The notes beneath the pieces are model-generated. The model was not told where the DNA came from. It made no database searches and saw only the letters and a list, made by a program, of their open reading frames with translations. From positions 1 through 64,000 of the forward strand of contig JACFNL010000006.1 of assembly GCA_019454875.1 (NCBI GenBank): a DNA stretch of 64,000 nt, written 5' to 3'. The position numbers were made by a program, and so were the translations under genes. The DNA comes from Candidatus Cloacimonadota bacterium. GTDB lineage: Bacteria; Muiribacteriota; UBA6191. This document shows positions 31,537 to 61,016 of the stretch, one piece after another. Numbering within the stretch: the first letter of the stretch is position 1; the number at the start of each line of letters is the position of its first letter.

Positions 31537-31621
31537 TTTATTAAATTTGACCGCTTTTTGTCCGATTCAACGGTAAGAGTCTGCCTTTTTTTTGGCGACT
31601 TGTAACCTTGGAGTGAAGCGG

Positions 31622-34600
31622 ATGTTTAATTACAAGTCGGTTGCATGGCTATTGATTCTGCACCTGGTTTTACAGCCATTTTTGTTGGTTGGTACAGTGC
31701 TTTTTGCAGAAGAGGGGGATTCGGCCCCTGTGCGTCGAACTTTGAACAGAAGAAGCACTAATCCGGATCAATCACCCCCTGCTGCCCAGAATCAGGGTGA
31801 GGCGGCAACCAGTGAAAATTCTGAAACTTCCGGAACTGATACAGCTTCAGGCCCAGCAACTACAACAGGTGGCAGGCAAAGGATTCTGACTTCCATGAGC
31901 CAAAATAGAGGCTCTGTGGCCAATACCTCTTCAGCCACCGAGGTGTCCTCATCTCTTGCACTACAGGACACAGCCTATCGGGAATCTTTGGACATCCTAT
32001 CGCCTGATGACACTTCCCCGGTTCTGGCAGAATCTGTTTTTGGAGCCAAGGGCAAGGTCAGAATCAACTTGGTAGCAGACAATGTGGAAATTAAAAGTAT
32101 CATGGATTATCTGGCCACAGAATACAGAATCAACATCGTATCCAAGGAGATTGCCACTAACAACCGTATTAAGACCTCACTTTACGATATTCCACTGGAA
32201 ACCGTATTTCAGGTACTTCTTGAGCAGTCCAATCTGTCCTATGAAAAAAGAAACGGGATTATATATCTTCAGGATCGGGGCCGTGGCCAGGATTATTTTC
32301 TGGAAGAACGGTTTTTTAAGTTGAAGCAGTTTGCCGACTTTGATTTTGCGGGAAAGCTTATCGATAACATTTCTACTTCAAGGGGCAAAAAGATCCTTCC
32401 CAATCCGGAAAAAAAGGCCTACTTTGTGGTTGAGTACAAGGCCAATCTGGAAAGAATTCAAAAGACCCTGGGTGATCTAGGATACCTTGACATCATTGAT
32501 CCTGATTCATCGGTATATTCCCACCATTATCTGGCCTACAACTATGTGGATCCCAAAGTTGTGGATGAGATCATTAAAAAGCACCAGACCAAGGATGGAA
32601 AAGCCATTCCTGATGCCAAGTCCAACCGTTATATTGTGTTTGATACCAATGCCGCCTTTGAACTAATGAAGCAGGCTCTGGATTTTATTGATGTACCCCC
32701 AGGCCAGGTGTTTGTAGATGTAAAATTTCTGGATCTGAATGATGATGACACCAAGAGGATTGGTATGTCCCAGGTTGTGGACTGGAATGGAAACACCAAT
32801 GATCAGGACAAGTTTCAGTTTTCTTTGGCTGCTGATGTGACCCGCGCCTTAAACTGGCAAGTCAGTCCTGTTGTAAATCTGGGCATGTCAGGAAACCATG
32901 ATCTTTTAAACACCAAGATTATTAACAATCCCAAGGTAATGGTCATGAATAATGACACAGCCAATATTCAGGTTACTGAGAATTTCCCCTATGTCACCAA
33001 TGAAAACAGCAATGGTGTGATTTCTTCCCAGATCAATCAGGTACCTATTGGAGTGCAGTTAAATGTTACTCCCAAAATTAATGCTAATGGTGAAGTCACC
33101 ATGACACTGGAGCCTAAGGTGACTGTACTGAAGGATGTAAAAATCATTACCACCAAGGTAATTGACACCAATCAGGCAGGGGGAAGAACCACAGAAACGG
33201 ATTCAGAGTTTCCAATTATTGATGAACGCTCCATTAAAACCAATGTTACCATTCCTAACGGTAAGACTCTGATCATTGGTGGCTTGATTAAAGAATCGGA
33301 TCGCAAGGGTGTAGATCAGGTTCCGGGACTCACCAAACTACCCTTGTTAGGTCGATTTTTTCGCCGTACCACGGACGCTGAATCCAAGTCCCAGCTCTAC
33401 ATTTTTATTACTCCAACTATTGTCAAACAGGCACCAGTTACCTCGGCCTTCCGATCGCAGCAACTTGCAGCTGTTCCATCTCTGTCTACCAGTGTAAGTG
33501 ACAGCTCCACTCAGACCAGAGTGGCAGTTCCAGGACTACAGGTAAGCTCGGCTGAACCAGAAACAAAAGCCAGACCCGGTGTTACACCTCTTAAGGAAAA
33601 GGTCGATTTTTCAACCTTTTTGCAGAAGGTGAATGCTTTACGGGAGAAGGAAAGACAGGAAAAATTTGAGGCATCCGATGTGCAGGCTAGAAATGTTCAG
33701 AAACAGGAAGGTTTTGATCATTTAATTGAAAAACTGAAGCAGGATATTCGTACCGAGTCACAAAAACCGGAAGCTGTAGCTACAAAGACATTGGTATCCA
33801 CCGAGCCATCCCAAAAACTCAGTGCTCCGCTTATCCCTAAGGATGTGGTTCTAGGAGACAGGGCAGAACGCATTGCCAAGCTTCTTAGAGCATGGGAAGA
33901 AAATCCAGTGGATGGTGTTATGAAACCCAAGGAAGCAGTCGCAGATCCAATTGATCTTAGACCTCGGCCACCAGAGGCCAAGGCACTTCCCGATACAACA
34001 CCTTTGAGTCAGGACATTGGGGGAGGACCAAGACGAGTGTCCGTTGCTGCCCCCGAGGTTAAAAAGATCGAGGTGGTGGTTCCCGTTGAGACCAAGGCAG
34101 AGGAAGTCAAGGCCTTGGTTGAAGACCCGATTCAGATGGATTATTTCTCACCGTTAGGAATTGCTCCTGATGCCAGGAAAAGGCGGGCTGTTGAGGATCC
34201 GGTGTTTAGATTTGGAGACATTAACGGAACCAGACCGAATCCGAATGCAGCTCCTGTTAACACTTCGGCACCAGAGGTTATGGAGACAGACATACCCTCG
34301 GAGGAAGCAGCAGGCGAGACTACTTCAGAAACTTCGGAAGCACCGACACGCAGACGAAAGGTTGGTTTTTTTGAGGAGCCCATGTCCCCCAATCAGTTTC
34401 TGCCCGTACCTAAAGTTGAAACTCCTTTAAAAAAGGTTGTGTCAACTGGCTCGAATCGCAGCTTTGAGTTTACTGTGCGACCTACGGAAACCAAAGGTGA
34501 TAAAACTTCGGGCTCACAAAACTGGGTGGATGACTTTTTGGAAAGAGATCTGACCAGAATTGTAGTGTCACAACTTAGTGAATCTGAAGATGAGATCTTT

Positions 34601-35053
34601 GCGATGGCCGGACATAAACAGGCACAGGCTCCGGTAAAAAACGAGGTTGAAAAACCAATGCCGCCTGCTGAGCCTGTAAAAGATGAAGTTGTGCCAGCAC
34701 CTCAGCCTGTTGTTGCAAAGGCTAAGGAGAAAGAAGCTCGGCCAGTGATTATGAGTTCTCCTGATCCAAAAACCCAGGAGATTTTTAATGAATTAAACAG
34801 GACTGAACCTTTGTTATCCAAGAGGACTGTGGTCGCTGAGGTACCGGTAACTCCAGTGCCTGAACCAAGAAAAGTGCCTGCAGAATCAGATTTTGAAGCA
34901 TTTTTAGCAGATATGTTTAGTCCCACAGATGATGTAGCGGCTGTTAGTCAGGCTTCCTCGGTTGCAAAGACAGGTACAACAACTTCCACAAAACTACCTT
35001 CTTTGTCGGCTAGTGCGGAACGGGATTTCCTACAGTTTCTGGGAGGATTTTAA
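31622..35053 (+). CDS. Secretin (type II secretion / type IV pilus family) with a long disordered C-terminal tail
   Basis: This is 1143 residues from the ATG at 31622, which has GGAG upstream and opens a signal-anchor region (MFNYKSVAWLLILHLVLQPF). A Ser/Thr/Pro linker follows, then an STN/secretin N-terminal domain at about 142-215 (INLVADNVEIKSIMDYLATE). The secretin core at about 360-600 ends with IPNGKTLIIGGLIKES, DQVPGLTKLPLLGRFF and LYIFITPTIV. Secretins form outer-membrane gates. The remaining 540 or so residues are Pro/Glu/Lys/Val-rich, low-complexity and unlike any secretin domain I know. The tail contains repeated DF..FL-type motifs. The stop overlaps the convergent pilin-like gene in TTAA. 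Confidence 0.88.
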   Translation: MFNYKSVAWLLILHLVLQPFLLVGTVLFAEEGDSAPVRRTLNRRSTNPDQSPPAAQNQGEAATSENSETSGTDTASGPATTTGGRQRILTSMSQNRGSVANTSSATEVSSSLALQDTAYRESLDILSPDDTSPVLAESVFGAKGKVRINLVADNVEIKSIMDYLATEYRINIVSKEIATNNRIKTSLYDIPLETVFQVLLEQSNLSYEKRNGIIYLQDRGRGQDYFLEERFFKLKQFADFDFAGKLIDNISTSRGKKILPNPEKKAYFVVEYKANLERIQKTLGDLGYLDIIDPDSSVYSHHYLAYNYVDPKVVDEIIKKHQTKDGKAIPDAKSNRYIVFDTNAAFELMKQALDFIDVPPGQVFVDVKFLDLNDDDTKRIGMSQVVDWNGNTNDQDKFQFSLAADVTRALNWQVSPVVNLGMSGNHDLLNTKIINNPKVMVMNNDTANIQVTENFPYVTNENSNGVISSQINQVPIGVQLNVTPKINANGEVTMTLEPKVTVLKDVKIITTKVIDTNQAGGRTTETDSEFPIIDERSIKTNVTIPNGKTLIIGGLIKESDRKGVDQVPGLTKLPLLGRFFRRTTDAESKSQLYIFITPTIVKQAPVTSAFRSQQLAAVPSLSTSVSDSSTQTRVAVPGLQVSSAEPETKARPGVTPLKEKVDFSTFLQKVNALREKERQEKFEASDVQARNVQKQEGFDHLIEKLKQDIRTESQKPEAVATKTLVSTEPSQKLSAPLIPKDVVLGDRAERIAKLLRAWEENPVDGVMKPKEAVADPIDLRPRPPEAKALPDTTPLSQDIGGGPRRVSVAAPEVKKIEVVVPVETKAEEVKALVEDPIQMDYFSPLGIAPDARKRRAVEDPVFRFGDINGTRPNPNAAPVNTSAPEVMETDIPSEEAAGETTSETSEAPTRRRKVGFFEEPMSPNQFLPVPKVETPLKKVVSTGSNRSFEFTVRPTETKGDKTSGSQNWVDDFLERDLTRIVVSQLSESEDEIFAMAGHKQAQAPVKNEVEKPMPPAEPVKDEVVPAPQPVVAKAKEKEARPVIMSSPDPKTQEIFNELNRTEPLLSKRTVVAEVPVTPVPEPRKVPAESDFEAFLADMFSPTDDVAAVSQASSVAKTGTTTSTKLPSLSASAERDFLQFLGGF

Positions 35054-53300: not shown

Positions 53301-53867
53301 ATGTTTTTTGTTGAAGATGTTATGCTAAGTGATGCAATTCGGTACACCCGTTTTGGCTGCCGTCTTATGACATGCAAAGGTAAATGCTGTGAGGAGGGGG
53401 ATAGTGGTGCTCCTCTTACCGAACTTGAAGCCCAGACAATTGAAGCAATCCTGCCAATTGTGGCTTCAGAGCTAGAGCCGTCTGGATTGCAGGTGGCGAG
53501 CAGGCGGGCAGTGGTTCGTGAACAAGGCAGGCCACATACCCCGTTAGTTGGGGAAGCTGGGCCATGCGCCTATCTGATTCCTGGTGAAGGCTCGGTTAAA
53601 ATCTGTGCCTTTGAAAAACTTTTTAAAGAGGGAAAAATCGGATTTTTGAAACCCGTTTCCTGCCATTTGTTTCCACTGATTTTTAAAGAAACCATGTTTT
53701 ATCGCTCATTATCTTTGCAGACCAGGGAATCCTGCATGTCTTCTTATGGAGCAGCCGGGCCTCATATTGTAGAATTTTTGAAAGAACCCCTGATTCGTCA
53801 GTTTGGGGAAGATTGGGTAAAAAAATTGTTTCTTGAGCTTAACTTAACCTTTGAATCAGACTCCTGA
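53301..53867 (+). CDS. DUF3109 family cysteine-cluster protein
   Basis: A 188-residue protein with the family core CKGKCCEEGDSGAPLTELEA (about 27-46) and further cysteines in GPCAYL, ICAFE, SCHLFP and ESCMSS, a probable metal-cluster site related to the YkgJ group. Reaction unknown. I chose the ATG at 53301 because the alignment with the family (VEDVMLSDAIRYTRF) begins there; an upstream ATG at 53238 would place the promoter inside the gene. Its end overlaps the convergent gene by 12 bases. Confidence 0.85.
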   Translation: MFFVEDVMLSDAIRYTRFGCRLMTCKGKCCEEGDSGAPLTELEAQTIEAILPIVASELEPSGLQVASRRAVVREQGRPHTPLVGEAGPCAYLIPGEGSVKICAFEKLFKEGKIGFLKPVSCHLFPLIFKETMFYRSLSLQTRESCMSSYGAAGPHIVEFLKEPLIRQFGEDWVKKLFLELNLTFESDS

Positions 53868-55628
53868 ACCCAGACTTTCCAGTGTGACAAGTGTGTCCTG
53901 AAACTCGTTGGGCTTGGTTGTTACTTCAGGATCCAGATTTAAACCCTGTTTGACCAGTCGGTTAAAATCCTGCCAGACCTGTTGTCCTGGGGTGGCGAGC
54001 TTCCGGTCAGAAACTTCGGCTAGAAAGTCGAGCTGGTATACCTTGTTATTTTGTAATACAAACACGGATCTTTTGGCGATATAACCCCGGTTCTGCTGAC
54101 CTGAAGGATGGGGGAATACATAATCTACCAAAAACACCTCATCGCCCCAGTATTTGTCGGCTACACTGAAATAATCATTCTGGTACCTGGTCGAATAATA
54201 GGCTGCAAGGTTACTGCGTAACTGTTCCAAAGTACCGGCTTCCGAGGCATTCAGAACAGAAAAGGTTCCTCGAAGGTTACTTTCAGGATCGGGATAGAAG
54301 CGGTATTTGGTTGAAGAACGGGAATCAGGATTTTTTTCCCACTTCCATTCACTAAGCCCTGATTTTACAACAGGAGCAGGAATCTGATAGAACTCATAGA
54401 ACCTAAATCCGGCTCCACCAAGAAGCCCAAGGATGGAGATAGCTGCCAAGTTGCGCACAAATCGAATCATCAGGGTAAAAATTCCAGGACTGTTATTCTG
54501 TTGTGTCTGATTGTGGGTATTATTGTTCATTGGTCCATTCTGGCGACGATCCCGCCTTTGAATCAGTTCATCGACCTGTGTTTTGCCTGAGTCGGATACC
54601 TTAGGTTCTTCCAGGCGGGACAGTTCCTGGGAAATACTTTCTGTTTTCTGAATCAACTCTTCAAGATCCGCTGAATATGTGTCAGCCACCAGCTCTTTGA
54701 CGGGCTGTGGTTTTGCTGGCTCACTTTCCAGATTGGCCTTGCGCATCATTTCCGCCAAATCGGATTGAGACAGGATTGCATCCGGTTCGGCATCAAGCAG
54801 GGGAGCCATCTCAAGTCCAACCGAGACTGGAGCCTGTTTAACCGGAGCCTGTTTAGCCGGGGGTTCGGGAATTTTGATTTCAGATTCTTTGGTATCAAAA
54901 AGATCATCAGTAGATACCTGAATTTCCTTTTGAGTTTTGGCAATCAGGGCTTGAATATCGTCATGAGAAAGTACAGCGTCACTGTCACTATCCATGGTAG
55001 TAGCATTGGCTGCCTCAACTAAAGCAGCAATCTGATCTGGTGATAGGGGGGCATCGTCGTCAGGGTCCATGGAACTATGCAGAATTGATGGGACTTTAGG
55101 TGCGGGAGCAAAGACCTGTGGCTCAGGTTCAAGAGCAGGTGCTGGAGCTGGTGCTGGGCTTTGGGCTTCACGGATCAATGCCTCTATGTCATCGGAAGAC
55201 ATGATTTCATCTTTACTAGGGCTAGAGGTTTCTACCTTGGCTACAGCTGGTTCAGGTTCAGGTTCTGGTTCAGGCTGGGGCTCAGGTTGTGGTTCAGGTT
55301 CAGGCTTAGCTGCCTGAGTGGTGGATTTAATCAATGCGTCAATATCGCCTTGACTTAACATTCCATCGTCTGGTTCCATTTTAGAGCTCTGAGGCTCAGG
55401 CTTGGGTTCCTCTTGGGCTGGGGAGTCTGTAGCAGAGGCACTAGGAGTATCGGCAGTGTCTTTGGTCTCATTCTCTTCGGCTTCTTTAGCCTTGTCTGGA
55501 TCCTCGGGAGGATTCAAAATATTTTCGTTGGTTGCATTGAGGGTATTTTCGGGGAATAGGCTGGCTACGGCGTATTTTTCCGCCTCTGTAAATAGATCCT
55601 GAATTTCCCGATCGGTGAACTGTGACAT
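53856..55628 (-). CDS. Membrane protein with tandem FliM-N-like (CheY-binding) motifs
   Basis: A 590-residue protein. Residues 1-380 are cytosolic and disordered, rich in Pro, Glu, Asp and Ala, but carry a repeated short motif: MLSQGDIDALI (90-100), MSSDDIEALI (143-152), PLSPDQIAALV (194-204), VLSHDDIQALI (219-229) and ILSQSDLAEMM (285-295). Weaker copies occur at FTDREIQDLF (4-13), SADLEELI (319-326) and QVDELI. The copies match the N-terminus of the flagellar switch protein FliM (ILSQAEIDALL), which binds phospho-CheY. A membrane helix follows at about 385-405, then a 180-residue periplasmic domain that I do not recognise. It is the last gene of the pilin-like operon. Function inferred only. 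Confidence 0.75.
   Translation of the reverse strand: MSQFTDREIQDLFTEAEKYAVASLFPENTLNATNENILNPPEDPDKAKEAEENETKDTADTPSASATDSPAQEEPKPEPQSSKMEPDDGMLSQGDIDALIKSTTQAAKPEPEPQPEPQPEPEPEPEPAVAKVETSSPSKDEIMSSDDIEALIREAQSPAPAPAPALEPEPQVFAPAPKVPSILHSSMDPDDDAPLSPDQIAALVEAANATTMDSDSDAVLSHDDIQALIAKTQKEIQVSTDDLFDTKESEIKIPEPPAKQAPVKQAPVSVGLEMAPLLDAEPDAILSQSDLAEMMRKANLESEPAKPQPVKELVADTYSADLEELIQKTESISQELSRLEEPKVSDSGKTQVDELIQRRDRRQNGPMNNNTHNQTQQNNSPGIFTLMIRFVRNLAAISILGLLGGAGFRFYEFYQIPAPVVKSGLSEWKWEKNPDSRSSTKYRFYPDPESNLRGTFSVLNASEAGTLEQLRSNLAAYYSTRYQNDYFSVADKYWGDEVFLVDYVFPHPSGQQNRGYIAKRSVFVLQNNKVYQLDFLAEVSDRKLATPGQQVWQDFNRLVKQGLNLDPEVTTKPNEFQDTLVTLESLGSGV
54744..55361 (-). repeat. Coding repeat: five LSxxDIxALI motifs
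   Basis: The five best motif copies are each preceded by an acidic stretch (MEPDDG, SPSKDE, MDPDDD, MDSDSD, DAEPDA) and spaced 25-66 residues apart by Pro/Ala/Glu-rich linkers. The repeats agree in protein but not closely in DNA, so they are old or under protein-level selection. Confidence 0.8.
55248..55304 (-). repeat. Short tandem Pro-Glu/Pro-Gln coding repeat
   Basis: Residues about 109-127 of the FliM-motif protein are a run of alternating Pro with Glu or Gln, encoded by a nearly regular hexamer repeat (read on the plus strand as GGTTCA/GGCTCA-type units). It is a stiff linker and a likely site of repeat-number change. Confidence 0.7.
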
Positions 55629-55672: not shown

Positions 55673-57292
55673 CTAGAGGTCCTGTAGAAAATCTTTAATT
55701 TGAATTTCAGGAATTTTCAGCAGTTTCTCTTTTGAAACAAAAAGATCAGAATCATTTAAGTCCTGATTTAAAAATCCCTGATCAAACAGGGATGGCATGG
55801 ACTGTGATTTACTGCCAGCACTCATTCTGTATTCGGTTGGATTGTAAGCCACAACTTTAGTATTGAGCCCCTGTCCAAACCGCATTTGAGTGCCAGATTG
55901 AAGTTTTGTTGTTTCTATTTTGGTATCTACCGTCAGTTCACCCTGGACTACACCGGCTGTGGAATAGTCAGGATGGTGGCGGGCTAGATGGTAACTTCCG
56001 ATTTTTCCTTCAATCCTGCCATGACTGGTCTGACAGGCAAATGCCTTCTCTTTGTCCTTAACTGTGATTTTGATACTTCCTGTATCCAGATGAAATTCAT
56101 TGTGGGCGATAACCCTTAAGTCGGAGGCTGCTTCGAGAACGATGTCGGCATGTGATGTTTTAAGATAGGCATCTGAACTTGAGGTTCTAAGAAATTCTCC
56201 AGCACGAACAGGACTGTTTTGGCCATTTAACTCAAAAAAACCAACAGGTGGATTAAACTGATCCATGTTTTGCAAAAGACTCATTGTGTTTGTAGTGCTT
56301 TTGACTTCGGATACGGTTTCACTTCGGACAGGGTTTATAGTTTTGTATATGGAGCCACAAAAGAAAACTACAATAACTGCCAAAGCTGGTTTCACCAGGG
56401 CTGTGGCCTGCTTCTCCTCAACCTGATTTTTCCAGGGCTCAGTACTGAATCCATCGGCTTCAGAGTTTTCCAGTTCCTGTTTTTCCTGAAGCTGCCGGAT
56501 CTCATTTTGTCTGCGGATTGCTTCAATCATCGAGGAAGGTTCTGAGCTTTTTTCTTTAGGTGGCTCCCATTGGGGGTACAAGGAATGTACATGGGTGTAA
56601 ATACTTTTTTCTTCAAACCGGTCACGAAAGTCGATTCTTAAACCCTGGAGAAGTCGATGCATTCTCTGGTGAAAGGGTACAGTATTCAAAATCTGCTGCT
56701 TTGAGTTTAGCTGGTCTACAAACTGGGTCAACTCTTCTGCGGCAGTGAGTGATGGGTCCTTGGCCGGGTGTCCCATTAACTGATCCAGGATTGTATACAG
56801 GTGGGCTTCCAGTACGGGTTCAGAAATTCCCAACAAGCGAGCTGTTCTTTTGGAACCGAGTCCCTCCAGGACACACAAATCAAGCAGAAACTTTCTGGGG
56901 CTGGAAAGCTGGGTTCTTCTAAGAATGGAAACGGTATCCCGATCGGGCAGGGAGTCCTTATCAAAAAACTTGTCCGACAGGGGTTGTAAATGAGTCTCTT
57001 CGTAGGCACATTCACGAACCCGGCCCAAAAACGCCTTGGCCGGTTCCGGTTTGTCCCTCAAAACCAGTTTGAGCGCACCGGTTAGCAGTAGCATATTCAG
57101 TGGCTCACTCTTGGATTGCCGGATTTTTGAGTCCCGTAATCGGCCCAAAATTTCGGCACTCCAGTTCCATGCCAATGACCTATCCTCCGTAAAATAGGTA
57201 AAAAAATGGCATAGGCAGGGATTCCCCTCGGTCCAGAGGCTTAAATAATCTTCTGCATCAGAAACCTTTGCCATGACGGAATCGTTCTCCAT
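55673..57292 (-). CDS. Sigma-region-4-like HTH / transmembrane / FecR-domain fusion protein
   Basis: A 539-residue protein. Residues about 130-172 (SSPRKFLLDLCVLEGLGSKR, TARLLGISEPVLEAHLYTIL) read like the helix-turn-helix of ECF sigma region 4. The 110 residues before it have a helical pattern that may be a worn sigma region 2. A charged coiled coil (255-280) leads to one membrane helix (about 298-314). The periplasmic part at about 350-475 matches FecR (ELNGQNSPVRAGEFLRTSSS, DLRVIAHNEFHLDTGSIKIT, VVQGELTVDT). FecR proteins are normally separate anti-sigma regulators, so both halves being in one chain is unusual. The start overlaps the upstream pilin-like gene. Confidence 0.65.
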   Translation of the reverse strand: MENDSVMAKVSDAEDYLSLWTEGNPCLCHFFTYFTEDRSLAWNWSAEILGRLRDSKIRQSKSEPLNMLLLTGALKLVLRDKPEPAKAFLGRVRECAYEETHLQPLSDKFFDKDSLPDRDTVSILRRTQLSSPRKFLLDLCVLEGLGSKRTARLLGISEPVLEAHLYTILDQLMGHPAKDPSLTAAEELTQFVDQLNSKQQILNTVPFHQRMHRLLQGLRIDFRDRFEEKSIYTHVHSLYPQWEPPKEKSSEPSSMIEAIRRQNEIRQLQEKQELENSEADGFSTEPWKNQVEEKQATALVKPALAVIVVFFCGSIYKTINPVRSETVSEVKSTTNTMSLLQNMDQFNPPVGFFELNGQNSPVRAGEFLRTSSSDAYLKTSHADIVLEAASDLRVIAHNEFHLDTGSIKITVKDKEKAFACQTSHGRIEGKIGSYHLARHHPDYSTAGVVQGELTVDTKIETTKLQSGTQMRFGQGLNTKVVAYNPTEYRMSAGSKSQSMPSLFDQGFLNQDLNDSDLFVSKEKLLKIPEIQIKDFLQDL

Positions 57293-58151
57293 TAAACAGG
57301 GGATTCACTACAAAAAAACTGGTGGAAATGCTTCGTCCTTCCGGGCCAGAGCCTTGCCTTTCCCCTTGAAATACCATTTTAGTATGATGATAGACCTTGG
57401 TCAGTCTGAGATTAAACTTTGAAGGTTCTTCCTTGTCTCTAAAGTAGGAGAATTCAAAACCTGGTTCAATACTGAAGTGCTCGATTCGGCCTTCTGCCCC
57501 GTGAAGCTGCCCAAATCGATGCGTTTCCTCTCCCTCGCCCGGGCCAGTCATTCTGGAGACAAAATTCAGTTTTTCCTTGCCGCTTAAATCACTCAGATAG
57601 TGTCTATACCAGACTTTTTCACCCTTGACACCAATGTAGTACTCGCGAACCTTGGCAGAAATAGGTTCTTCGATGTCCCGGCTGACTACGGCAAATGAAT
57701 TGAGCATAAATTCAGGATGGTCATTAAGCACCACTTTTTTGTCAAAAAAGTGGTCGTATTTATCCTCATATTCATAATACATCTGGCCGTTGGCTCCAAA
57801 TTTTTCCCGAGGCAGCCTTTGGATGGGCAAAACCTCAATTGTGTCAGAGACAGCGTTGACATCATCATAAACCACACAGGGGAAAAAGCGGGGCTGGATT
57901 GGAAATGGTTTTTTGTGCTGGTGTAAATCAACAGGTGCATCGCTTTTGGTGAATCCTTGAGCATCGTACAAATCCTGTCGCAAAACCATGATGAAATTTT
58001 GCATGTCCTTGATTGTGCTTAAGGTTTCTTCACCTTTAAAGGAGTTTCGTAATGATTCAATAAAATAGGTGTAGATTCCTATCAGAAGAACGGCGGCCAC
58101 CCCCACTGCAAACACAGCTTCAATCAAGGTAAAACCGTGCCGTGTTTTCAT
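57258..58151 (-). CDS. Type IV prepilin-like protein (PilW/GspJ-like)
   Basis: A 297-residue protein from the ATG at 58149-58151, giving MKTRHGFTLIEAVFAVGVAA, a textbook prepilin peptidase site (G-F-T-L-I-E) and helix. The globular part is large and beta-rich, as in PilW or GspJ minor pilins. The start overlaps the upstream stop (ATGA). A longer frame upstream would lack a prepilin leader of normal length. Confidence 0.85.
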   Translation of the reverse strand: MKTRHGFTLIEAVFAVGVAAVLLIGIYTYFIESLRNSFKGEETLSTIKDMQNFIMVLRQDLYDAQGFTKSDAPVDLHQHKKPFPIQPRFFPCVVYDDVNAVSDTIEVLPIQRLPREKFGANGQMYYEYEDKYDHFFDKKVVLNDHPEFMLNSFAVVSRDIEEPISAKVREYYIGVKGEKVWYRHYLSDLSGKEKLNFVSRMTGPGEGEETHRFGQLHGAEGRIEHFSIEPGFEFSYFRDKEEPSKFNLRLTKVYHHTKMVFQGERQGSGPEGRSISTSFFVVNPLFNGERFRHGKGF

Positions 58152-58669
58152 TGTAAATATACCTCGTCCCTGGTCATTACGGTTTTTAACTCTAAAGACC
58201 GGTTGTATTCGCTGGCTCCAGGGGTTATCCATTCCACACGAACGGCGAGAACCTTGGCATCGGGCATAGGACGATGGTTTTCACTGGAACCGATGTTGGC
58301 AGGATAAATTTTTATCATGCGCCGAAATCGGTCTGGCATTGGAGAAAGTACAAGTTTACTTAAGGAGCGAATATCGGGATTTTTGAAATCTTCCCATAAG
58401 TAGGGGCGGGGCATGGCTGAGATATCAAGCCAGGGGTTTTTTTCGTTTTCATCCGAAATATTATTGATTCCATCCATACCCAATGACATCTTGATCGTAG
58501 TGATACTGTCAACTACCTCACGAGCAATGATCATGGCCTGAATTTCATCCAGGCTGGCCTCGGTCTGATGTATAGACTGGCGGAACATAAAAAACATGGG
58601 TATGGCCAGAAACAGAAGAAGCATTGAGGCAATGATGATTTCCACCAGTGAAAATGCTTTTTTACTCAT
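58148..58669 (-). CDS. Type IV prepilin-like protein (PilV/GspI-like)
   Basis: A 173-residue protein from the ATG at 58667-58669: MSKKAFSLVEIIIASMLLLF, a prepilin leader with Ala instead of Gly at the cleavage site and the conserved Glu at +5. The start overlaps the upstream gene by 8 bases. Its size fits PilV/GspI minor pilins that cap or start the pilus or pseudopilus. Confidence 0.82.
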   Translation of the reverse strand: MSKKAFSLVEIIIASMLLLFLAIPMFFMFRQSIHQTEASLDEIQAMIIAREVVDSITTIKMSLGMDGINNISDENEKNPWLDISAMPRPYLWEDFKNPDIRSLSKLVLSPMPDRFRRMIKIYPANIGSSENHRPMPDAKVLAVRVEWITPGASEYNRSLELKTVMTRDEVYLQ

Positions 58670-61016
58670 GCTCAATTCTTTTTTTTCCTTGATTGTGATC
58701 ATCCAATGCCATTCTATACATTTTCCAGCTGTCTGGAGCAAGTGGATTTAACCTAGGGTTATAGGTTAATGTAGTGGATGCCTGAAACATGGACAGATCC
58801 AGACGGGACACAGCCAGGGATCCCAAAATATGTACAATCTGTTCCGGGTTGGACTTGCGGATAGTGCCTGAAGAGGTTAGCTGGGCCTCGTAGAGAGTGG
58901 GGACTCCGGGGGGAGTGTTACCAGGATTCAAATGAATCTCGGAACATTCAAATCCTGCGTAAAATCCCTGGGATTCCACGGGAGCGAGATTACACATTCC
59001 GGCGACTATGATGCTGCTGTCTCCAGATAACACCACCGGAAGATCAAGGTTTAAATTGCCCCACAACCCAATTGTGCGCCCCTGGGTATTGAGATAAAAC
59101 ATCCCGCTGCCTCGCTTCAAAATTCCGGCATCCTCAAGTTTTTCCTGTTTGTCATAAAAAAAGCTGGCTCGTTTCAAAGAGGCGTGGGCCAGGTCATGAT
59201 AGTCGGGTATTCCCTTCAGATATGCTCCTGTAGGTGTCATACTCTTGGGGAGCTTCTGAACCCAGGTTTCCTCATCATCCTTGCCAGGAGATGGTCTTAA
59301 ACTGGGGGGGAAGCTGTAATCAAGAAAACTTTCGTGGGCATGGGGCGGAAATACCTTATGGGTATAATGAGGGAAATCGATTAAGTGATTTAAATGAACC
59401 CGGATTGTTTGGGCCATTATGGATTCATATTCCTGGTACTGAGGTGCAAGAAGCTCCCAGGAAAAATCGGGCTGGGCCAGCAGGTGGACTGGTTCTTCAC
59501 AATCTTCCACAAAGTTCATATTGGTCCACTGAAGTGGCAGGGGCTGATAAAAGGGAGGATTTTTATTCACAAATTCAAACTCGGTCAGATTGCGAATTAT
59601 GGCCGAACTTTCAAAATTGTGAACAGATTCAGGCAGGCAGCGGGCTCTTGAGCGTTCATCGGCATCACTTAGATCCCGGTCTATTCTTAAGGAGCTGAGT
59701 TTTGCTATTTCCAGATAGGCTTCTCCTACTGTGTAGGTTCTTGAAGGATAGTCTACAGAACCAAACACCTTCAAAAGAGATGATTCCGCAGAATATTGGG
59801 GAATATAGTAGGCAGGATTGGCAGGCCCGGTAGTCTCATAAAAGCCTTCGTAAAGTTCTTCCACCCATACGGATCCGGCATTGTCTGCAAGGGGTGGGGT
59901 TTCAGGATCCTCAAAAAAATAGGTAAACATCACTGGCTCGGTAAATCGTGGAGGGGGATCGAGTCTAATGTAATTTGGCAGACGAATCCTGTTGTCTCCA
60001 GTCACTTTGGCCCTGGTAGTAAAATAGTTGCGGTTAAGAATCATGAACTGCTGTCCGGCCGCTGCCATTCCCGGAGTCATCTTGAGCACACTGGACTGGG
60101 AGTTTCCAAGGTAAAGCCATCCTCTTTGATCAATAGAGGATTTGCTTAACTGAAGTTTGTTTGAATCCCTTAAAGAATCAAGGCCTTCCATTGTGTCAGG
60201 AGCGGGACCATAAATCTGGAGATCGGTTTTGATTTTTTCATCCTTTAAAGGACTGTGATACAGAAACATGGGGTAGTTGTACTGATATTTGAGGTTTCCA
60301 CCCTGGACAATAGGGACTCCGTTAATATCTGTGTACAGCCTCTGGTAATTACTAAAATTGGAGTCATTGTGCCAGAGAGTAAATCTGGACAAAACAGGCT
60401 GACCCAAGGAGTAGGATACCAGGGTCTTTGTCCTGACGGCCCCGCCTATCAGACCCTTAAAATCCACGGATGCGCCAAAGTTCAGGGCACACTGAATCAA
60501 GATGCTGTCTTGAAATTCAGACTCTTTGTCCAATCTGGGATGACATGAGTAGGCCAGTTTTAGCTGGTAGTCCTCTGCTCCGATCTGCTTCAAGAACAAA
60601 TCCATTGCCTTAACAGTCTGTCCCCGCTTCTTTAGCCATTCCACATTCTGTTCATGATTAATTTCTCCGTGCCCACCCTTGGGAAGCAATGAGAAGTTTC
60701 TGAGGAAGAATCCAAAATAGCCGGCATCTGTGTTGAGGCGATCTGAATTGATTGCACTCTCAAGGATTCTGTGATCCTGGGCACCCTCCACGCTGTCGCG
60801 AAAACCCAGTATAAACAGTTCCACCAACCCTTCTGCCGCTGTTTTTGCACTTTCTGCATAAAACATTCTGTGTGCATCACGATTTTGCTGTAAAGAACGG
60901 GAGTGTAGTGTCAAAAAAAGTATTCCAACGACACTAAGGATGCCAAGTACTATAAAAAGTACAAAGCCCCGGTTGTGAGAATATAGTCTTTTGGGAAAAA
61001 TAATTTGCATATCCAC
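58662..61016 (-). CDS. Large pilin-like membrane protein (PilX/GspK-like N-terminus)
   Basis: A 784-residue protein. The N-terminal segment is HNRGFVLFIVLGILSVVGIL, then HSRSLQQNRDAHRMFYAESA, as in PilX or GspK proteins: one hydrophobic helix after Arg-Gly and an alpha-helical stalk with Ala-Glu. The remaining 700 or so residues are periplasmic and not recognised; no CxxC or metal site stands out. It is much longer than usual PilX (about 200 residues) and could act as a tip adhesin like PilY1, which is speculation. It is the first gene of the five-gene minus-strand operon. Confidence 0.7.
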   Translation of the reverse strand: MDMQIIFPKRLYSHNRGFVLFIVLGILSVVGILFLTLHSRSLQQNRDAHRMFYAESAKTAAEGLVELFILGFRDSVEGAQDHRILESAINSDRLNTDAGYFGFFLRNFSLLPKGGHGEINHEQNVEWLKKRGQTVKAMDLFLKQIGAEDYQLKLAYSCHPRLDKESEFQDSILIQCALNFGASVDFKGLIGGAVRTKTLVSYSLGQPVLSRFTLWHNDSNFSNYQRLYTDINGVPIVQGGNLKYQYNYPMFLYHSPLKDEKIKTDLQIYGPAPDTMEGLDSLRDSNKLQLSKSSIDQRGWLYLGNSQSSVLKMTPGMAAAGQQFMILNRNYFTTRAKVTGDNRIRLPNYIRLDPPPRFTEPVMFTYFFEDPETPPLADNAGSVWVEELYEGFYETTGPANPAYYIPQYSAESSLLKVFGSVDYPSRTYTVGEAYLEIAKLSSLRIDRDLSDADERSRARCLPESVHNFESSAIIRNLTEFEFVNKNPPFYQPLPLQWTNMNFVEDCEEPVHLLAQPDFSWELLAPQYQEYESIMAQTIRVHLNHLIDFPHYTHKVFPPHAHESFLDYSFPPSLRPSPGKDDEETWVQKLPKSMTPTGAYLKGIPDYHDLAHASLKRASFFYDKQEKLEDAGILKRGSGMFYLNTQGRTIGLWGNLNLDLPVVLSGDSSIIVAGMCNLAPVESQGFYAGFECSEIHLNPGNTPPGVPTLYEAQLTSSGTIRKSNPEQIVHILGSLAVSRLDLSMFQASTTLTYNPRLNPLAPDSWKMYRMALDDHNQGKKRIEHE

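Follow-up and report, generated by a model that had tools for sequence, protein, structure and literature searches.

FecR systems are most familiar from the uptake of iron via TonB receptors. One relevant protein, IutY of Pseudomonas putida, is a sigma/FecR hybrid that is activated by Prc and RseP (PMC5411451), and sigmas of the ECF48, ECF52 and ECF53 groups are fused to anti-sigma-like domains (PMC8999054); for the ECF52 sigma SCO4117 proteolytic release has been proposed (PMC5826349). The sigma/FecR fusion architecture itself is already known, and the statement in an earlier, sequence-only reading of the DNA analysed here, that known FecR systems use separate sigma and anti-sigma proteins, is wrong in view of IutY and the fused ECF48/52/53 proteins. 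In PhyR a sigma-like domain that is degenerate at the promoter and RNA polymerase contacts acts through protein binding (PMC8103513). The window (the whole 64,000-nucleotide stretch analysed, from an assembly of 214 contigs that is 95% complete) contains a gene that, by its sequence, is an ECF sigma gene joined to the gene for its FecR-type membrane regulator, and the sigma half of its product probably now signals or holds partners instead of reading promoters.

This fusion gene lies on the minus strand at 55673..57292, the coordinates first given for it being correct, with its ATG at 57292 and its stop at 55673, and it encodes 539 amino acids; other strands and frames were rejected, as the plus-strand translation is riddled with stops. 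The protein has a sigma-like N-terminal half, a helical middle, a membrane helix and a FecR-like C-terminal half, all given here with minus-strand coordinates. The sigma half comprises a sigma2-like region (residues 12–95, 57008..57259) recognized by hhalign and alignment, in which the motifs of regions 2.2, 2.3 and 2.4 are lost, and a sigma4-like region (residues 118–173, 56774..56941) recognized by Pfam, hhalign, the AlphaFold model and alignment, within which the helix-turn-helix (HTH) occupies about residues 146–173. The helical middle region (residues 184–275, 56468..56743), assigned from position and gene order, sits where separate FecR proteins carry an anti-sigma domain; anti-sigma profile support for it is weak (E 0.01) and confined to family f2, profile comparison giving none in family f1, and the Cys motif of some relatives is absent from this part of the target. 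A single membrane helix follows at about residues 297–319 (56336..56404), as the sequence-only reading had proposed; the sole hydrophobic segment of the protein has its hydropathy peak (2.08) at residues 297–315, and in the AlphaFold model the helix spans 296–319. The FecR-type periplasmic beta domain (residues 350–482, 55847..56245) is identified by Pfam matches of homologues, hhalign and structure matches, and after it the model has only 49 low-confidence residues, the C-terminal tail (residues 491–539, 55676..55822).

The fusion gene lies directly downstream of a GspJ-like pseudopilin gene (57258..58232, minus strand; N_methyl match, E 3.2e-5), which its start overlaps by 35 nt. This gene is preceded by those for a GspI-like pseudopilin (58148..58741, minus; weak N_methyl match) and a GspK-like large pseudopilin (58662..61016, minus; weak GspK match, and related to the other K proteins of the phylum); the assignments of the first two are also backed by conserved gene order. 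Next downstream of the fusion on the same strand is a gene for a membrane protein (53856..55628) with five LSxxDIxALI-type repeats, for which no Pfam family was found above cut-off. We take these repeats to resemble the CheY-binding motif at the N-terminus of FliM. The repeat gene was seen next to the fusion in family f1 but not in f2, and a relative in genome G003 (L017 6319–8637) has twelve repeats.

Searched alone, the target protein gave a Pfam match to Sigma70_r4_2 at residues 128–166 that is under the curated cut-off (E 0.025), and no Pfam match to FecR; a scan of the genome collection with this single protein found only its closest homologue, that of a congener, which is 76% identical. 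Six such fusions were found in all, placed immediately after the GspJ-like gene, in two families (f1 and f2) of one class, a sample of only two distinct lineages in which all genomes are incomplete; an assembly artefact was rejected, as the six occur in separate genomes. Two of the homologues, from another genus of the same family, are 20–24% identical to the target, and two from another family of the class are 17–18% identical. All four of these distant homologues have the same layout and genomic place as the target, and three of the four have Pfam FecR matches (E 1.6e-5 to 1.8e-4). Within the phylum, a profile built from the six fusions matched canonical ECF sigmas with its N-terminal half (E 1.5e-7 and 3.5e-7) and FecR proteins with its C-terminal half (E 7e-7).

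Profiles with independent sides were compared by hhalign. The N-terminal halves of the four f1 fusions align over residues 12–169 with a set of 18 canonical ECF sigmas from the phylum (96.6%, E 4.9e-10, score 65.9), and the highest score among 100 column-shuffled controls was 21.9, which rejects a chance HTH; the fused C-terminal halves align with 12 FecR proteins (94.4%, E 8.6e-8), and mismatched pairings of the halves gave nothing. The match over residues 12–169 shows that the homology spans the complete two-domain ECF sigma (sigma2 plus sigma4) and not the HTH alone. A profile comparison of the N-terminal part with ECF sigmas had been suggested as a check on the sequence-only reading, and it bears out the proposed sigma relationship of that half, as the C-terminal comparison, together with the fold matches below, does for the FecR half. 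No match came from searching the PDB sequences directly with HMMER.

Structure prediction was the second suggested check. In AlphaFold models of the whole protein, run on six sequences, the beta domain at 350–482 is well predicted with a confident FecR fold, and it matches the anti-sigma structure 4m0h (Z 16.9, rmsd 2.5, 129 residues) and PupR 6ovk (Z 16.2, rmsd 2.9, 129 residues). Helices lie at the sigma2 and sigma4 places in a sigma-like order with low to moderate confidence; the Z scores of 5–7 between the full model and sigma factors are within the range common for helical bundles and are not proof. The N-terminal half modelled alone was poor (pLDDT 55.7), with no significant sigma structures among its matches, a result that at this model quality does not count against a sigma fold.

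Although the fused half is related to ECF sigmas throughout its length, it has lost motifs and basic residues with which they contact DNA and polymerase. The recognition helix of region 4.2 in the target is EPVLEAHLYTILDQLM, without lysine or arginine, and a separate sigma has, for example, EVTLRSRFFRIMGRLR. There are no Lys or Arg residues in this helix in any of the six fusions, where it is acidic or neutral, as against four to six in all 18 of the separate sigmas. Every fusion has also lost three features of region 2, namely the D-L-V-Q-E-T-F motif of 2.2, the Trp-Leu of 2.3 and the basic stretch that ends 2.4; the set of region 2.2–2.4 motifs (DxxQE(T)F, WL, N and the basic tail) is found in 0/6 fusions and is largely present in the 18 separate sigmas. 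Judged on the sequence features tested, the fused half fails as a functional ECF sigma, although a diverged sigma could still read DNA in some other way.

These losses are not accompanied by decay. Residues 1–175 are the most conserved part of the protein between the congeners (89% identical), with 100% identity at 96–127 and 93% at 128–172, compared with 74% in the FecR domain and 42% in the linker after the membrane helix. In the sigma region pN is 0.07 and pS 0.76 (dS is saturated between the congeners, so pN and pS are given and not omega values). Pseudogene decay of the sigma half was rejected on this identity and low pN, which indicate constraint by purifying selection. With its core kept, its DNA- and polymerase-facing residues lost and strong selection acting on it, the sigma half is for these reasons best read as a protein-interaction module.

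A map of the relatives suggests where the fusion came from. The K-I-J pseudopilin cluster occurs in three layouts. Family f7 has two of them: in several of its genera K-I-J-FecR faces a separate ECF sigma gene head-on, and in others the sigma gene, the FecR gene and then K follow one another on one strand. In the third, that of the window's class (f1 and f2), the fusion comes after K-I-J. In the seven same-strand sigma/FecR pairs examined, three of which lie beside pseudopilins in the map, the two frames share 4 to 38 nt, an arrangement that would easily give rise to a fusion. From gene order and homology, the precursor was likely a separate sigma and FecR pair beside the same pseudopilin cluster. 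At another locus of the window's own genome (L059 3326–5205) an ordinary ECF sigma gene is followed by a gene for a separate 418-amino-acid protein with a membrane segment and a sequence that, judged by eye, is FecR-like.

Several other features of these neighbourhoods may be recorded here. In family f7 (L045–L063, L014) a gene for a TM156-like membrane protein directly adjoins the sigma gene, as an adenylate-cyclase-like gene often does, and these neighbours suggest that a conserved circuit of larger extent surrounds the pseudopilins. In three genomes (L014 3557–4762, L062 1410–2465 and L063 8677–9708) the cyclase-like gene has beside it a gene for another conserved membrane protein (343–401 amino acids), whose C-terminal half looks FecR-like by eye. 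Genome G003 has a tandem pseudopilin duplication, K-J beside K-I-J (L017 10503–17777), and genomes G004 and G005 of family f2 (L012 and L013) each have about ten GspK-like matches, which suggests several paralogues of the large pseudopilin.

The explanation that we consider, on balance, the probable one is that the protein is a repurposed pseudo-sigma that works by protein contact in pseudopilin-linked signalling. After or around the fusion event, the sigma half would have stopped recognizing promoters and turned into a module for protein interaction. In the periplasm the FecR domain would sense the state of the pseudopilin or secretion machine, or a ligand that reaches the domain, and the single membrane helix would carry the signal to the sigma-like domain. 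This domain would then bind a protein, for example the secretion apparatus, another sigma system or, by PhyR-like mimicry, an anti-sigma domain, acting in place or after RseP-type release. We propose tentatively, as a possible specific form, that a membrane-anchored pseudo-sigma, derived within this one class from a sigma/FecR pair of the kind found beside pseudopilins elsewhere in the phylum, relays the state of the pseudopilin or secretion machine by sigma mimicry, binding an anti-sigma domain or the machine itself, without DNA contact.

The customary input of FecR proteins, a TonB receptor that carries a signalling domain, is not apparent for this one. No TonB-dependent transducer adjoins the fusion gene, the four TonB receptors found in the 95% complete genome have (by eye) little sequence ahead of the plug that could hold a signalling domain, and the 49 residues after the FecR domain are too short for a C-terminal STN subdomain, which in PupR has 75 residues from its domain limits (PMC7186176). 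Lacking an STN subdomain, the fusion protein fails as a TonB-linked cell-surface signalling regulator. A large secretin of 1153 amino acids with a weak STN match, encoded on the plus strand at 31592–35053, about 20 kb from the fusion, may be a partner; the genome has five secretin genes.

The same observations bear on the main rival explanation, in which the protein works as IutY does: a diverged but working ECF sigma is kept inactive by its FecR tether until a periplasmic signal sets off cleavage by Prc and then RseP, which frees it as an activator of the pseudopilin genes. The domain order is that of IutY, separate sigma/FecR pairs occupy the same locus elsewhere, and the strong conservation of the sigma half fits a working factor. 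The genome moreover encodes three homologues of Prc/CtpA and one of RseP (E 6.5e-62), so proteolytic release of the sigma half, which the sequence-only reading had considered, would be possible in principle. However, no fusion retains the hallmark motifs of region 2 or any basic residue in the recognition helix, the TonB receptors found have little space ahead of the plug for a signalling domain, and the C-terminus has none for an STN subdomain; we regard this explanation as rather doubtful. It is unlikely that the protein is purely structural, an inner-membrane part of a pseudopilin or type II secretion-like machine that has lost signalling and uses its sigma fold for docking. The loss of the sigma motifs and the fixed place in the pseudopilin operon, where its start codon here overlaps the GspJ-like gene, are in keeping with such a role, but the FecR sensor fold is well kept and the gene probably derives from a regulatory pair. 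A membrane-tethered DNA-binding regulator like ToxR or CadC, using its HTH without RNA polymerase, had been offered by the sequence-only reading and agrees with the HTH helices retained in the model and the 93% identity of residues 128–172, but it is weakened to the point of being very improbable by the acidic or neutral recognition helix of all six fusions and by an HTH that is of the sigma region 4 type and not winged as in OmpR.

Comparison with known systems places the fusion protein closest to IutY (ECF243; PMC5411451, PMC9249621), a single polypeptide in which one membrane helix likewise stands between an ECF sigma and a periplasmic domain of the FecR type, in the same order as here. IutY, of about 41 kDa, has an active sigma and regulates the TonB receptor IutA; the fusion protein lacks the motifs of an active sigma, its gene neighbours are pseudopilins, it carries about 110 additional residues in its middle, and there is no space in it for an STN subdomain. 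The PupR/FecR regulators (6ovk; PMC7186176) share the fold of the juxta-membrane periplasmic domain, but are separate from their sigmas, end in an STN subdomain and work with a TonB-dependent partner. In the ECF52 protein SCO4117, too, a membrane segment links an ECF sigma to an extracytoplasmic domain; this protein differs in being actinobacterial, in having a zinc finger and a carbohydrate-binding domain in place of FecR, and in that its sigma is thought to be active. ToxR and CadC carry an OmpR-type winged HTH at the N-terminus, for which the target has no Pfam match. We found no precedent, in a partial coverage of the literature, for the pseudopilin link and pseudo-sigma state of a FecR fusion.

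The direct relatives of the fusion are the separate ECF sigma and FecR pairs (L014, L052, L055, L061–L063), which share its neighbourhood and have halves homologous to it; unlike it they are two genes, their sigma is canonical, and several of their FecR proteins have an N-terminal Cys motif. The recurrence of the sigma/FecR pair beside pseudopilins in many genera of this largely uncultured phylum suggests a circuit that senses an envelope machine. PhyR is a response regulator of the cytosol that carries a receiver domain (to which the target has no Pfam match) and neither a membrane helix nor a FecR domain; the fusion protein shares with it only the degenerate sigma-like domain. PhyR is nevertheless the main known precedent for a transcription factor turned protein-interaction module, and the fused sigma half, free of promoter-contacting residues yet conserved, offers a natural test case of that transition.
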